Origin: Sphingomonas sp. HMP9
GTDB taxonomy: Bacteria; Pseudomonadota; Alphaproteobacteria; Sphingomonadales; Sphingomonadaceae
Assembly: GCF_013374115.1 (NCBI RefSeq)
Contig: NZ_AP022673.1
Span: 2,752,001-2,816,000 of the forward strand
Direction: 5' to 3'
Length of the DNA stretch: 64,000 nucleotides
The notes beneath the pieces were generated by a model that worked only from the letters and a program-made list of their open reading frames with translations, did no database searches and was not told the origin of the DNA. Position numbers and translations under genes: made by a program. Positions 5,823-63,748 of the stretch are shown piece after piece (positions within the stretch are counted from its first letter, which is position 1; every line of letters starts with the position of its first letter).

Positions 5823-5930
5823 CACCACCCCGGCGGAGGCCGGGGCCCAGCTGGAAAGGTCGCAGTAACGACGCGCGCCCTACGTTAGCGACGTCCCCCA
5901 ACTGGGCCCCGGCCTTCGCCGGGGTGGTGG
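5823..5930. repeat. Inverted repeat family C, copy 1
   Basis: Left arm 5823-5854 (caccaccccggcggaggccg...) and right arm 5898-5929 (...ggccttcgccggggtggtg), nearly complementary over 32 bases, with a 43-base spacer. The second copy is at 25219-25323; parts of the spacer (gacgcgc, acgtcccc) are shared as well. Confidence 0.85.
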
Positions 5931-10704: not shown

Positions 10705-10829
10705 ATCCTCCCCCGCCAGGGGGAGGTGGCAGGCGTCAGCCTGACGGAGGGGGAGGTAAGCGATACCCTCCGTGCCGTGTCCGCCCCCTCCGTCGCCTAC
10801 GGCGCCACCTCCCCCTGGCGGGGGAGGAT
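10705..10829. repeat. Inverted repeat family A, copy 1
   Basis: Left arm starts atcctcccccgccaggggga and runs to cggagggggagg; the right arm ends acctccccctggcgggggag. Arms are about 50 bases and each folds on itself (cctccccc/gggggagg). Other copies: 12811, 22879, 30951 and, inside dnaE2, 61069. Confidence 0.85.
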
Positions 10830-12810: not shown

Positions 12811-12931
12811 GATCCTCCCCGGCAGGGGGAGGTATCGTCGAAGGTGATGGAAGGGGGAGGAACAACGTTCGTGCGTACCTCCCCCTCCATCAGGCTGGCG
12901 CCTGCCCCCTCCCCCTTGCGGGGGGAGGATC
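12811..12931. repeat. Inverted repeat family A, copy 2
   Basis: Left arm gatcctccccggcaggggga onwards, right arm ending ccttgcggggggaggatc; about 50-base arms with a short unique spacer. It lies between the charged protein gene and the end of the old-yellow-enzyme gene. Confidence 0.85.
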
Positions 12932-22878: not shown

Positions 22879-23004
22879 GATCCTCCCCCGCCAGGGGGAG
22901 GTGGCGCCGAAGGCGACGGAGGGGGAGGACACGCAACGACGGTTTCCCTTGCCTCCCCCTCCGTCTGGCAAGCGCCAGCCACCTCCCCCTGGCGGGGGAG
23001 GATC
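22879..23004. repeat. Inverted repeat family A, copy 3
   Basis: Left arm from gatcctcccccgccaggggg to ggagggggagg, right arm from cctccccctccgtctggcaa to gggggaggatc; arms of about 50 bases with a roughly 23-base unique spacer. Part of a tandem with the family B copy. Confidence 0.88.
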
Positions 23005-23008
23005 GCCC

Positions 23009-23090
23009 CGTCATCCTGACGAAAGTCAGGATCCAGAGTATCAGGCGCCGACATTCGTCGCTCTGGATCCTGACTTTCGTCAGGATGACG
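23009..23090. repeat. Inverted repeat family B, perfect copy
   Basis: Left arm 23009-23038 (cgtcatcctgacgaaagtca...), right arm 23061-23090 its exact reverse complement: 30 of 30 bases match. Spacer 22 bases. Arms are identical to those at 48292-48374; the spacers are unrelated. Confidence 0.92.
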
Positions 23091-23194
23091 GGGGGGGCGA
23101 GAAGGATGACGGGAGCGAAACCCGGCGTCCCCGACGCCACCGGCACACACAAGCATTTGCCACCGCGGCACCGCGCCCGCTATGCCCCGCGGCC

Positions 23195-25218: not shown

Positions 25219-25323
25219 ACCACCCCGGCGAAGGCCGGGGCCCAATTGGGTAGGCCAACGTGACGACGCGCAACGCCCGTTCGCCACGTCCCCCAATTGG
25301 GCCCCGGCCTTCGCCGGGGTGGT
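25219..25323. repeat. Inverted repeat family C, copy 2
   Basis: Left arm 25219-25250 (accaccccggcgaaggccgg...) and right arm 25292-25323 are exact reverse complements over 32 bases. The 41-base spacer shares gacgcgc and acgtcccc with the copy at 5823-5930. It lies between convergent tyrA and plsC. Confidence 0.9.
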
Positions 25324-30950: not shown

Positions 30951-31076
30951 AATCCTCCCCTGCCAGGGGGAGGTGGCTGGCACTTGCCAGACGGAGGGGG
31001 AGGACACGGAACAGGCGTCATCGCCGTCCTCCCCCTCCGTCACCTTCGGCGACACCTCCCCCTGCCGGGGAGGATT
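30951..31076. repeat. Inverted repeat family A, copy 4
   Basis: Left arm aatcctcccctgccaggggg to ggagggggagg; right arm cctccccctccgtcaccttc to tgccggggaggatt. About 50-base arms, short spacer. It lies between the small protein gene and the end of the secreted-protein operon. Confidence 0.87.
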
Positions 31077-48291: not shown

Positions 48292-48374
48292 CGTCATCCT
48301 GACGAAAGTCAGGATCCAGAGTTACGGAACGCTATCTTCAATGGCTCTGGATCCTGACTTTCGTCAGGATGACG
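48292..48374. repeat. Inverted repeat family B, perfect copy
   Basis: Left arm 48292-48321 and right arm 48345-48374 are exact reverse complements over 30 bases and are identical to the arms at 23009-23090. The 23-base spacer differs. It lies between convergent ankyrin and mmcB genes. Confidence 0.92.
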
Positions 48375-60232: not shown

Positions 60233-63200
60233 TCAATGAAAATCGCGCGACTTAGGCAGGACGCGAACGTCGCGCGGATGCGTCGCGCGGGGATGTCGTT
60301 CGCGAGCGTCCGGACTGCGCGTCAGTACCGGCCGGATCACCTCGTCGACGCGTGCAAGCGGCGGCTCCAGCGCATGATCTTCCGACAACAGCCGCAACAT
60401 CTCGGTGCGATCCTGCACGCGCGCGGTCATCAAATGCGTGACGCCTTCCTCGCTGCGCTGGATCACGCCCTCCAGCACCATCAGCCGCGACGCCATCACC
60501 GCGCGGCGATTGGCCTCGAAATCGCGCGCCCACATCAGCCCGTTGGTGATCCCGGTCTCGTCCTCGATCGTCACGAAGATCGCATTGCCCTTGCCCGGCC
60601 GCTGGCGGACCAGCACCACGCCCGCGACCTTCGCGCGGCGGCCGTCCTTGGTGGCGTTGGCCTGCGCGCTCGACAGGACGCCTTCCGCTGCGAACCGCGC
60701 GCGGAGGAATTGCATCGGATGCGCCTTCAGCGACAGCCGCGTCGTCTGGTAATCCGCCGCCACCTGCTCGGACAGCGGCATGGCGGGCAGATGCGCGTCG
60801 GGCTCGGCTCCGAGTTCGGGCACCTCCGCCGCGGCGAAGAGCGCGAGCTGCTTGGGCGGGGTCCGGCGCACGTCCCACAACGCCTCGCGCCGCGGCTTGG
60901 CGACCGAGCGGAACGCGTCGGCATCGGCGAGCAGGTTCATCGCCCGCTGCGGCAGGTTCGCGCGGCGAGCGAGGTCCTCGATGCTGGCGAACGGCGTGGT
61001 CCGAACGCGGACGATCTCGTCGGCCCAGTCCTGACGGAACCCATCGACCTGCCGGAACCCAAGCCGCAAATCCTCCCCGGTACGGAGAGGGGGACCATCC
61101 GCAGGATGGTGGAGGGGGGCCGCCGCGGACGTTCCGCCTGGAAGGGTGGCAGGCGCAAACGCGCCGTCCGCAACGGGCCCGGCCGCAAGCGATCCGTCCG
61201 TGGAAGCCCCCCTCCACCCCGCTTTGCGCGGTCCCCCTCCCCGTGCCGGGGAGGATTCGAGCGTGCTGTCCCACGCGCTGGCATTCACATCGACCGGCAG
61301 CACCGTTACGCCGTGCTCGGCCGCATCGCGCACCAGCTGCGCGGGCGCGTAAAACCCCATCGGCTGCGAATTGAGCAGCGCGCAGCAGAACACCGCGGGG
61401 TGGAAGCATTTGATCCACGACGACACATAGACCAGCCGCGCGAACGACAGCGCATGGCTCTCCGGAAACCCGTACGATCCGAACCCCTCGATCTGCTTGA
61501 AACAGCGCTCGGCAAACTCCGCCTGATAGCCGCGCGCGACCATCCCGCCGATCAGCTTGGCCTGGAAATTGTCCATGCCGCCCACCTTGCGGAACGTCGC
61601 CATCGACTTGCGGAGCTGGTTCGCCTCGTTCGGCGTGAACCCCGCCGCGACGATCGCCAGCTTCATCGCCTGTTCCTGGAACAGCGGCACGCCGTAGGTG
61701 AAGCGCAGCAGCTGCTGCAGCTCGTCGGGCGGCCCGAATTTCGGATCGGGGGAGGGGAATTCGACCTTCTCCTTGCCGCTGCGCCGCCGGAGATACGGAT
61801 GGACCATGTCGCCCTCGATCGGCCCAGGCCGGACGATCGCGACCTGCACGACCAGATCGTACAGCACGCGGGGGCGGAGCCTTGGCAGCATGTTGATCTG
61901 CGCGCGGCTCTCGACCTGGAACACGCCGATGCTGTCGCCCTTACACAGCATGTCGTACACGCGCGGGTCCTCGGCGACCGCGATCGTGTCGAGCAGATGA
62001 TCGCCGTGGCCATGCTGGCGCATCAGGTCGAACGCCTTGCGGATGCAGGTGAGCATCCCGAGCGCGAGGATGTCGACCTTCATCAGCCCGAGCGCGTCGA
62101 TATCGTCCTTGTCCCATTCGATGAAGGTGCGGTCCTCCATCGCGCCGTTATTGATCGGCACCATCTCGTCGAGCCGGCCCTGCGTCAGCACGAACCCGCC
62201 GACATGCTGCGACAGATGGCGCGGGAATTCGAGCAGCCGGTCGACCATCCCGCGAAGCCGGGCGATCTCCGGATTGTCGACGTCGAACCCGGTTTCGGCA
62301 AAGCGCTGTTCCTGGAACCGGCTTGAGAAACTCCCCCACACCGTGCTCGTCAGCCGCTGCGTCACGTCTTCGGTAAGCCCCAGCGCCTTGCCGACCTCGC
62401 GTACCGTGCTCTTGGGCCGGTAATGGATCACGGTCGCGGCGATCGCGGCGCGCTCGCGGCCATAGCGGCGATAGATATACTGCATCACCTCCTCGCGCCG
62501 CTCATGCTCGAAGTCGACATCGATATCGGGCGGCTCGTCGCGCTCGCTCGACACGAACCGCGAGAAGAGCAGGTCGTATTTCATCGGATCGACCGACGTG
62601 ACGCCGAGGAGGTAGCAGACCACGGAATTGGCGGCCGATCCGCGCCCCTGGCACAGGATCGGCGGGTCCTGCGCGCGCGCGAACCGGACGATGTCGTGCA
62701 CCGTCAGGAAGTAATAGGCGTATTTGCGCTCGCGGATCAGCACGAACTCCTCGTACAGGAGCTTCAGCATCTTCTCGGGCACGCTATAGTCATAGCGATC
62801 GAGCGCGATCTGCCAGACCATATGCTCCAGCCAGTCCTGCGCGTCCCACCCCGCTGGAATCGGCTCGTGCGGATATTCGTATTTCAGGTCGTCGAGCGTG
62901 AAGGCGATCCGTGACAGCAGCCGTGCGCTCTGCGCCACCGCGTCGGAGCGATCGCGGAACAGCCGTACGATCTCGTCCTCTGGCTTCAGGTGCCGCTCGC
63001 CGTTCGCGGCCAGCAGGCGCCCCGCCTTGTGGATCGTCGTGCGCTCGCGAATGCAGGTGACGACGTCGTGCAGGTCGCGGTCGTCGGGATAGGCATAGAG
63101 CGCGTCGGTCGTAGCGAGCACGGGAACGCTCGCCGCATCGGCGATGCGGCCAAGCCGCGCCAGTCGCCGCCGATCGCGACCACCACGCGGCATCGTCACG

Positions 63201-63748
63201 CCCAGCCAGATCGAGTCCGATCCCAGTCGCCTGACCGCACGAAGGACCGTCGCCAGATCGCGCTCTTTCCGTTCGGGTAGCGCGTCGCCGTCCGGCAGCG
63301 GCGACACCGGCGTCGCACCGCGCGCGCTGCTCTCGGGCATCACCACCAGCATCATGTCGGCGTGATGCGCGATCAGGTCTCCCAGCCCGAGGATGCAGCC
63401 GCCCTTTTCGGCACGGCGATTGCCGACCGTCAGCAGCCGAGTCAGCAGCCCCCAGCCACGGCGTGTCGCCGGGTAGGCGACGATGTCGGGCGTACCGTCC
63501 TCGAACACGAGCCGCGCGCCGACCACAAGCCGGAAGTCGATCGGCGGCATCCCCATGCCCAGCAGGCCGTCGCGGGCCTTCTTCAACGCCTGATGCGCGC
63601 GGACCACGCCCGCCACGGTGTTACGATCGACGATCCCGATCCCGCCGAGCCCGAGCTCCACCGCGCGGCCGACCATCGCGCCCGCATCGCTGGCCCCGTC
63701 GAGGAACGAGAAATTGGTCGCCGCGACCAGTTCGGCGAACCCGGTCAT
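60233..63748 (-). CDS. dnaE2: Error-prone DNA polymerase DnaE2, carrying an in-frame repeat element
   Basis: 1171-residue alpha-type polymerase of the SOS mutasome (ImuA-ImuB-DnaE2), which copies past damaged bases. PHP domain at the N-terminus (ELVAATNFSFLDGASDAGAMV), catalytic core with PPDIDVDFEHERREEV (metal-binding Asp), CQGRGSAANS, and a C-terminal OB-fold region (GVVLVRQRPGKGNAIFVTIED). Residues 831-894 (61069-61257) are unusual: this exact 189-bp stretch is an inverted repeat of the family A type with 51-base arms and is rich in Gly/Pro/Ala; the conserved protein resumes at LRLGFRQVDGF. The frame is kept. Start ATG 63748, 13 bases after the imuB stop. Confidence 0.95.
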   Translation of the reverse strand: MTGFAELVAATNFSFLDGASDAGAMVGRAVELGLGGIGIVDRNTVAGVVRAHQALKKARDGLLGMGMPPIDFRLVVGARLVFEDGTPDIVAYPATRRGWGLLTRLLTVGNRRAEKGGCILGLGDLIAHHADMMLVVMPESSARGATPVSPLPDGDALPERKERDLATVLRAVRRLGSDSIWLGVTMPRGGRDRRRLARLGRIADAASVPVLATTDALYAYPDDRDLHDVVTCIRERTTIHKAGRLLAANGERHLKPEDEIVRLFRDRSDAVAQSARLLSRIAFTLDDLKYEYPHEPIPAGWDAQDWLEHMVWQIALDRYDYSVPEKMLKLLYEEFVLIRERKYAYYFLTVHDIVRFARAQDPPILCQGRGSAANSVVCYLLGVTSVDPMKYDLLFSRFVSSERDEPPDIDVDFEHERREEVMQYIYRRYGRERAAIAATVIHYRPKSTVREVGKALGLTEDVTQRLTSTVWGSFSSRFQEQRFAETGFDVDNPEIARLRGMVDRLLEFPRHLSQHVGGFVLTQGRLDEMVPINNGAMEDRTFIEWDKDDIDALGLMKVDILALGMLTCIRKAFDLMRQHGHGDHLLDTIAVAEDPRVYDMLCKGDSIGVFQVESRAQINMLPRLRPRVLYDLVVQVAIVRPGPIEGDMVHPYLRRRSGKEKVEFPSPDPKFGPPDELQQLLRFTYGVPLFQEQAMKLAIVAAGFTPNEANQLRKSMATFRKVGGMDNFQAKLIGGMVARGYQAEFAERCFKQIEGFGSYGFPESHALSFARLVYVSSWIKCFHPAVFCCALLNSQPMGFYAPAQLVRDAAEHGVTVLPVDVNASAWDSTLESSPARGGGPRKAGWRGASTDGSLAAGPVADGAFAPATLPGGTSAAAPLHHPADGPPLRTGEDLRLGFRQVDGFRQDWADEIVRVRTTPFASIEDLARRANLPQRAMNLLADADAFRSVAKPRREALWDVRRTPPKQLALFAAAEVPELGAEPDAHLPAMPLSEQVAADYQTTRLSLKAHPMQFLRARFAAEGVLSSAQANATKDGRRAKVAGVVLVRQRPGKGNAIFVTIEDETGITNGLMWARDFEANRRAVMASRLMVLEGVIQRSEEGVTHLMTARVQDRTEMLRLLSEDHALEPPLARVDEVIRPVLTRSPDARERHPRATHPRDVRVLPKSRDFH
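61069..61257. repeat. Family A-type inverted repeat inside dnaE2
   Basis: Left arm 61069-61119 (aatcctccccggtacggaga...) and right arm 61207-61257 (...ccccgtgccggggaggatt) are reverse complements at about 41 of 51 positions, with an 87-base spacer. Whole element 189 bases = 63 codons, no stop in the dnaE2 frame. It encodes a Gly/Pro/Ala-rich insert between STLE and LRLGFRQ. Confidence 0.85.

Follow-up and report, generated by a model that had tools for sequence, protein, structure and literature searches.

The dnaE2 gene and its palindromic insert

The stretch of DNA analyzed here (the window, 64,000 nucleotides; G000:C1:2752001-2816000) belongs to the 4.0 Mb genome of Sphingomonas sp. HMP9. 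The gene under study encodes DnaE2, whose profile score of 1354.7 bits is above the curated cut-off of 939 for the NCBIfam error-prone DNA polymerase model NF004225. The closest named relatives of the protein are all from Sphingomonas: sp. BK036 (94% over residues 760-960) and sp. Leaf208 (94% in the best segment). The following features are found at the locus:

60233..63748, minus strand: dnaE2, error-prone DNA polymerase of the ImuC type; putative start at 63748 (MTGFAELV), P0001 beginning at 63736, four residues later
61070..61256, no strand assigned: palindromic element, reading ATCCTCCCC...GGGGAGGAT in the direction of the gene, in frame in dnaE2 and missing from close relatives
61186..61257, minus strand: 5' arm of the element in the gene's sense, encoding SSPARGGGPRKAGWRGAST..., from arm pairing and shuffles
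61069..61140, minus strand: 3' arm of the element in the gene's sense, encoding ...APLHHPADGPPLRTGED, from arm pairing and shuffles
61079..61249, minus strand: codons for P0001 residues 830-886, predicted to be disordered (AlphaFold pLDDT <50), between strands 825-827 and 889-891

That a palindromic element lies in frame within dnaE2, as had been proposed from the sequence alone, is confirmed, with some corrections. The inverted repeat is real, but its arms are 72 nt each and 76% complementary, and the repeat is therefore imperfect, not one of 51 clean bases. The 189 nt proposed as 63 codons are free of stops, but the palindrome is not aligned with the codons, as it begins at the second base of one of them. 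The element spans 187 bp and has the ends ATCC...GGAT. Its best ungapped arms score 24 compared to 12 or less in 200 codon shuffles, and the RNA fold of the insert has an energy of -141 kcal/mol (z -9.0), equalled by 0 of 200 shuffles. The only two Rfam matches to the element, both to the MIR1858 microRNA family, have 32.4 and 30.1 bits compared to a gathering score of 137 and were taken as chance.

The insert is contained in one uninterrupted open frame of the minus strand and brings a net gain of 57 residues. The loop has 67 residues here and 10 residues in Sphingomonas sp. UV9 and S. faeni, in which the empty sites read NALE-SSGAD-VRLGF and SSLE-ALGAD-LRLGF, respectively. The alignment of DnaE2 shows the insert to be present in some Sphingomonadales and absent from others, among them these two, and orthologs from outside the lineage do not have the same residues at this place. 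Disorder of the insert is predicted by AlphaFold: the pLDDT is 25-31 across residues 831-880, and the insert separates the two strands of a hairpin.

A second variable site of DnaE2 is the linker of the PHP domain near residue 150 (L070, L071, L073, L074). The peptides found there, for example RHAGLVPAST, look like those of another palindromic repeat, perhaps a decayed one.

Related palindromes in the window and the genome

A search of the 4.0 Mb genome for the arm motif CCTCCCCN5-6GGGGAGG gives 114 occurrences, compared to 0 for the reversed-pattern control, and the paired motifs are about 100 bp apart. The dnaE2 insert belongs to a rarer subtype, which is present at six places of the genome: in dnaE2, in truB (C1:3537885), at the glgC-glgA junction (C1:2115962-2116150), and near C1:1865691, 2926231 and 2926612. 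Other copies do resemble the arms, the nearest being the one at the glgC-glgA junction (72% over 189 nt), and the nearest copies also include those at 1865691, 2926231/2926612 and in truB.

The copy at the glgC-glgA junction (L009; junction identified by eye from translations) is full-length; it lies directly before the likely start of GlgA and can be read without a stop in the frame of that protein. It could lengthen the N-terminus of GlgA.

The ten loci of the commoner subtype that were examined appear intergenic, as judged by eye from the codon-position G+C pattern. The following related palindromes lie in the window:

10705..10829, no strand assigned: related palindrome of subtype A1, overlapping none of the called coding segments
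12812..12930, no strand assigned: related palindrome of subtype A1, overlapping none of the called coding segments
22880..23003, no strand assigned: related palindrome of subtype A1, overlapping none of the called coding segments
30952..31075, no strand assigned: related palindrome of subtype A1, overlapping none of the called coding segments
5823..5929, no strand assigned: palindrome of the putA/glycosyltransferase insert family (75% over 107 nt; 80% over 106 nt), outside called coding segments
25219..25323, no strand assigned: second member in the window of the family of the putA insert, which it matches at 80% over 109 nt; not within any called coding segment

The first four palindromes had been assigned to the same type as the dnaE2 insert. 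This assignment is only partly right: in a BLASTN comparison of the insert with the window, 12811 and 30951 are matched over 21 and 22 nt (95%), and 10705 and 22879 have no match at E <= 1, although their ends look similar by eye.

Fourteen elements measured in the HMP9 genome, nearly all of them intergenic, are 119-132 bp long and open in at least two of the six frames each, and three are open in all six. With most frames open in this set, the notion that entry into genes is limited to stop-free elements was rejected. Another perfect palindrome (CGTCATCCTGACGAAAGTCAGGATCCAGAG) occurs at positions 23006-23093 and 48292-48374 of the window, outside called coding segments; its copy at 23006-23093 directly follows a palindrome ending near 23005.

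The dnaE2 loop across Sphingomonas

All 151 genomes of the genus that were searched for dnaE2 gave some match. The survey comprises 68 loci (30 + 38) of the higher-scoring class, to which genomes with only a distant paralog or a fragment do not belong. The loop could be parsed in all 68 loci; it has 17 residues or fewer in 45 of them and is longer in 23. As palindromes, 16 of the 23 long loops beat all 200 shuffles, and L035 beats 198. The remaining six (L033, L034, L078, L075, L079 and L081) have no significant palindrome, so the loop lengthens in other ways too. Among the 80 named GTDB loci, 63 could be parsed into 48 short and 15 long loops. Four of the 15, from Sphingomonas sp. Leaf208, sp. 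PP-CE-3G-477, Hephaestia caeni and Sphingobium xanthum, outscore every shuffle as palindromes. The peptides of the best 120 homologs listed in a protein search give the same picture, with many dissimilar inserts.

The inserts are in many cases dispersed repeats. The family of L083 has 39 matches in G019, 74 in G103 and 28 in G024, the L047 insert has 78 matches in its own genome (G047), and the L032 insert has 84 in its own (G084); both strands are counted in each of these genomes, so that the number of places is about half. The L045 insert has 7 matches in a 40-kb sample of G130 and 0 over 20 shuffled controls. In samples of 30-40 kb from their own genomes, L027 has two matches, and L047 and L035 one each, whereas the inserts of L028, L032, L083, L033, L034 and L078 have none; L032 and L083, absent from the samples, are nonetheless dispersed in the genome-wide search. 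The shuffled controls of L033 gave three chance matches in the sample search.

A pairwise comparison of a subset divides the dnaE2 inserts into five groups that have no cross-links:

the HMP9 insert's own group: L017 and L027, with truB
L083, L035 and L045, with the truB insert of G024
L047, with a truB insert
L028, together with putA, the glycosyltransferase and two window palindromes (5823 and 25219)
L032, with hrpB

Single-linkage grouping had placed L083, L035 and L045 with the family of the HMP9 insert, but this was due to chaining and was rejected when the pairwise comparison separated them. One putA insert provides weak links to the L047 type, the L028 type and also to the DnaE1 insert. 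Because these links touch the L047 and L028 types, we count four families and not five: judged by sequence, the dnaE2 inserts can safely be said to comprise at least four clearly different families, most of which were confirmed as dispersed in their own genomes. In the L019 insert, a tandem duplication of 10 residues is found in the drifting middle, and the frame is intact.

The focal clade consists of 15 rows, of which ten are filled and five are empty; all ten inserts are in frame and stop-free, and their lengths differ by multiples of three. On the tree of the 68 rows, filled and empty sites occur in sisters (filled/empty: L027/L036, L083/L053, L047/L061, and L045 versus five empty relatives). 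When the six non-palindromic long loops are dropped, the tree has 62 rows, 17 of them filled, and at least 11 changes are required. Outside of the focal clade, 7 of 47 rows are filled and 7 changes are required, each filled row standing alone among empty neighbors. The tree of the 3' part requires 6 changes over 18 rows. Such change counts cannot separate gain from loss, and gain is the natural reading because the isolated filled tips belong to different families.

Other host genes

A sample of 464 kb of the HMP9 genome was examined (the window and 20 stretches of 20 kb, with 380 genes predicted from a custom codon score). It contains 55 inverted repeats scoring 16 or higher, six of which are within coding segments. 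Four of these six are recognizable palindromic repeats, in dnaE2, hrpB, putA and a PEP-CTERM glycosyltransferase gene, and two are not. The TruB insert, though in the sample, was missed because it scores 14, under the threshold of 16. Scaling from this one-genome sample suggests that roughly 35-45 genes per genome would carry an in-frame palindrome. One repeat family can have several hosts: dnaE2 and truB share one, dnaE2, putA and the glycosyltransferase another, and dnaE2 and hrpB a third. The truB copy is placed as follows:

C1:3537885-3538016 (L011, L100): truB copy of the same subtype as the dnaE2 insert, in frame, in the turn before SKGTYIRS

The truB insert is also present in most of the close relatives read. 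The truB search matched 147 of 151 genomes, and the 50 loci read are a biased set (the 30 best matches and 20 picked for a split match), so that the counts are not a frequency: 30 loops are long, 29 of these (all except L117) are palindromic beyond all shuffles, and of the 20 short loops one (L157) is palindromic beyond 200 of 200 shuffles. Several of the short TruB loops (L150, L155, L157) retain an SSP...GEE look, as if they were remnants of a shrunken element.

In the replicative polymerase DnaE1 (L200, G000:C1:3590800-3594700; also L201-L203), a different palindrome is found in the hairpin that is homologous to the dnaE2 site. An insert is present at this hairpin in 4 of 38 DnaE1 proteins read (the 30 best matches and 8 picked, most of them for length), and the four genomes concerned all belong to the focal clade. 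A repeat-like insert at another position of DnaE1 is found in L204.

The PutA linker is palindromic in HMP9 and six relatives (93-95% identity), beating 200 of 200 shuffles in all seven genomes, and its palindromes are of three types; four further genomes match only a paralog at 51-52%. The hrpB gene reads through in 9 of 11 cases (that of HMP9 and ten others), with palindromic inserts in all nine, which are read in two different phases (five genes versus four). It does not read through at the insert in G124 and G024 (L330-L333). The sequence of G024 has an undetermined base there, so an assembly error is possible.

A possible mechanism of spread

By combining these observations, it is possible to describe how the dnaE2 insert may have arisen. 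Several families of non-autonomous palindromic repeats would have spread in Sphingomonas, those copies that landed in frame in exposed turns or linkers would have survived, and the dnaE2 insert would be one such copy. We give this reading a probability of about 0.82.

The families would consist of short (about 90-190 bp), G+C-rich, stop-poor palindromes that land widely. When the length of a copy is divisible by three and the copy enters an exposed turn or linker, it would add an unstructured loop and survive; most other copies landing in coding DNA would presumably be purged. The dnaE2 insert occupies the turn of a predicted hairpin located after the fingers domain, and this turn appears to have been struck repeatedly in other species by different families. 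The turn of TruB, the linker of PutA, the HrpB site and, in DnaE1, the corresponding hairpin would have been struck likewise. Selection after insertion may act mainly to hold the frame open, and filled and empty alleles may move between species by recombination. The palindrome, its dispersed family, its position in frame, its absence from sister species, the recurrence with different families, the predicted disorder and a middle free of codon bias are what the data show. Transposition as the source, the purging of other copies, the tolerance of the proteins and the exposure of the sites other than that of dnaE2 are the parts that we infer.

The presence and absence in sisters, the dispersed copies, the open frame in the ten focal carriers, the predicted disorder and the in-frame copies elsewhere all support a frame-preserving insertion of a spreading repeat similar to that of the Rickettsia palindromic elements (RPEs). 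The mobility proposed in the sequence-only reading is thus supported, as judged from the distribution of the copies. The accompanying proposal that the repeats land in genes without breaking them has exceptions: in 2 of the 10 relatives searched, hrpB is interrupted at its insert.

The elements might, instead of surviving where the protein tolerates them, choose their DNA or their sites (an existing palindrome, a secondary structure or a feature of replication), and the dnaE2 loop would then be a hotspot and not merely a tolerant place. The seven isolated filled rows beyond the focal clade all concern one turn of a gene of about 1100 residues, the homologous turn of DnaE1 has also been struck, and GGAT or GAT at the right junction is often common to filled and empty alleles of the focal clade. 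However, the dnaE2 site is used by families with different end sequences, no common DNA motif is visible among the empty sites read, and the other hosts truB, putA and hrpB are unlike in sequence. In addition, the sites look like turns and linkers, as would be predicted from protein tolerance, the structural model in question being that of dnaE2. Targeting is therefore considered unlikely. Some observations count against the main reading of spreading repeats: no target-site duplication is recognizable by eye in the filled and empty dnaE2 groups read, in which the loop diverges fast; the genome gives no match to the transposase family PF01797; six long loops are not palindromic; the arms are conserved at third positions; and several inserts have no match in the 30-40-kb samples of their genomes.

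History of the dnaE2 loop

The preferred reading of spreading repeats takes the short loops of the focal clade as uninvaded sites. Conversely, the filled form could be ancestral in this clade, the short forms being the result of excisions or internal deletions. The sequence of Sphingomonas sp. UV9 (L029) does look like the two ends of the element joined, and the short truB loops that keep the SSP...GEE look, together with the still palindromic L157, might be understood in the same way. Nevertheless, the two halves of the clade have short loops of the same length and of the form LEAxGADLRLG, and the isolation of each filled row among empty ones outside of the focal clade does not favor an ancestral filled state.

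The dnaE2 gene of the focal clade is a mosaic, which bears on the same question. Over the first 780 codons or so, the two halves of the clade are 67-83% identical (seven pairs). Beyond codon 780, four filled-filled pairs between the halves are 86-93% identical, whereas over the 40 codons after the loop the filled-empty pairs and two empty-empty pairs between the halves fall to 79-81%. Within the first half, the filled-empty pairs L017-L029 and L019-L029 are 77.8% identical over these 40 codons, compared to 94.9, 98.3 and 87.2% for the filled-filled pairs of L017 with L018, L019 and L020. Since the filled-empty pairs of this half are less alike after the loop than the filled-filled pairs, an exchange of alleles is suggested, which argues against short forms made by deletion. 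The contrast is not seen in the second half (L038-L022 90.6%, L041-L022 85.5%), and the 90.6% identity of the filled-empty pair L022 and L038 makes allele exchange not evident there and fits an ancestral filled form. Taken together, the sequences provide partial evidence that filled and empty alleles may have been exchanged by recombination, and the ancestry of the filled form appears to be a rather doubtful explanation of the short loops.

Evolution of the insert

When the ten filled genes are compared, 13, 12 and 13 of the 23 codons in the middle of the insert are variable at codon positions 1, 2 and 3, while the corresponding numbers in the dnaE2 flanks are 41, 19 and 246 of 411. The dN/dS ratio is 0.65-1.9 in the insert versus 0.07-0.18 in the upstream part of the gene (nine pairs). 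The description of the element as domesticated is not upheld: no codon position of the translated middle varies more than the others, so the insert looks tolerated, not adopted. An adaptive role of the added loop in the polymerase, for example in binding ImuB, the clamp or DNA, is on this evidence quite improbable. It would account for the presence of the insert in 10 of the 15 members of the focal clade and for the conservation of the arms, but the arms do not show a pattern of the amino-acid type, different peptides occupy the same loop, the loop is predicted to be disordered, and close relatives are without it.

The arms behave differently from the middle. Their variable codons are 10, 5 and 5 of 39 at positions 1, 2 and 3, which is not a coding-type pattern, and at third positions the contrast with the flanks (5 of 39 versus 246 of 411) has a p-value of 9e-9. 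In truB, the variable codons number 9, 11 and 6 of 36 for the arms and 28, 17 and 151 of 263 for the flanks (p 4e-6 for third positions); both p-values treat the sites as independent, which those of related sequences are not. By these patterns, the middle evolves as if neutral, and the arms are conserved as DNA and not as protein.

The mean identity of the arms among orthologous copies is 95.6% in dnaE2, and in truB it is 94.4%; both exceed the 87.9% found between the dnaE2 and truB arms of one genome. Compensatory change in the stem was rejected as an explanation, as it is found in only 2 of 25 varying pairs. Concerted evolution or gene conversion between dnaE2 and truB was rejected as well for this pair of loci: the identity of their arms is 87.9% within genomes (n=16) and 88.1% between genomes (n=112), in a comparison of 8 of 9 genomes (G127 was dropped as its truB left arm did not parse), and because the two values are the same, such conversion does not explain the conservation of the arms. 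A lower mutation rate of the G+C-rich arms could also be its cause. Plain neutrality does not predict the conservation of the arms. As a tentative thought, which we hold to be less probable than its opposite, the copies in genes might still be kept as nucleic acid: the conservation of the arms locus by locus would then be due either to a function of the hairpin or to a mobile element keeping its working ends within the host gene, and exposed turns could be reusable landing sites at which families of palindromes replace one another, as in the PutA linker.

Palindromes are hard to sequence, and in two genomes the reading frame of hrpB is broken at the insert. The idea that the dnaE2 insert is an artefact (a misassembly, a pseudogene or a chance G+C-rich loop) can nevertheless be practically dismissed, because ten assemblies of the focal clade agree on an in-frame, stop-free insert whose length varies only by whole codons, the remainder of the gene is strongly constrained, and the arms beat 200 of 200 shuffles.

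Relation to known palindromic repeats

RPEs are described as palindromic repeats of 100-150 bp that form several families and are found between genes as well as in frame within conserved genes, at solvent-exposed places (PMC3767692, PMC10969869, PMC2229807). In some Rickettsia species the gene for the DNA polymerase III alpha subunit is reported to contain RPE-4, and the gene of R. felis RPE-6; the authors favor a common origin of RPE-4, RPE-6 and RPE-7 from one old insert but leave hotspots open as a possibility that is not negligible (PMC3767692). The likeness of the dnaE2 element to these repeats, drawn previously from the sequence alone, stands. Dispersed palindromes with both intergenic copies and in-frame copies (dnaE2, truB, dnaE1, putA, hrpB and the glycosyltransferase gene) resemble those of Rickettsia and Wolbachia. 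The dnaE2 copy, at 187 bp, is outside the size range given there, and the 14 measured copies are within it. In dnaE2 the placement is a predicted disordered loop between hairpin strands, which may be solvent-exposed. Unlike RPEs, the Sphingomonas repeats are G+C-rich, and different families occupy one loop whose sister sites are empty. Sphingomonas is not known to be an intracellular genus. By analogy, the dnaE2 element works like an RPE; the likeness is one of behavior, and membership among the RPEs is not claimed.

REP elements and REPINs, which are moved by RAYT proteins, are likewise short palindromes in high copy number, and the paired arms about 100 bp apart are reminiscent of them. REP/RAYT elements are described as having GTAG/CGTC tags (PMC3733652). 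The HMP9 genome, however, has no match to the RAYT/IS200-type transposase family PF01797 at E <= 0.001, whereas 5 of 14 control genomes match, and RAYT was therefore rejected as the mobilizer.

ERIC and the 107-bp Correia element are bacterial MITEs with open frames, for which in-frame fusions are known (PMC2229807). The Sphingomonas elements are similar to them in being non-autonomous, in their size of about 100-190 bp, in their inverted repeats and in their in-frame fusions, but the dnaE2 element has the ends ATCC...GGAT, not TA, and no target duplication that could be recognized by eye. The CIR repeats of Caulobacter are also alphaproteobacterial intergenic repeats; none are reported within genes, and they are reported to have stops in all six frames (PMC2229807), whereas the 14 Sphingomonas elements are open in at least two. 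Coding palindromes have been claimed in Pseudomonas aeruginosa (PMC4496055). Within the coverage of the literature search, outside of which most subscription journals lie, no report of in-frame palindromes in Sphingomonadales was recognized.

Implications

Rickettsia and Wolbachia are the best-known hosts of in-frame palindromes. What is new here is the host group, the several families, the reuse of one loop with empty sites in sisters, the presence of inserts at corresponding hairpins of two paralogous polymerases, and the arms conserved as DNA within translated sequence. The work on Rickettsia could not separate repeated insertion at a hotspot from the divergence of one old insert (PMC3767692). 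For Sphingomonas, repeated insertion is favored because filled and empty alleles occur in sisters and clearly different families occupy one loop. The Sphingomonas system thus makes the origin, the cost and the movement of such inserts testable. If tens of genes per genome carry an insert, as the one-genome sample would suggest, these repeats could steadily supply new protein loops.
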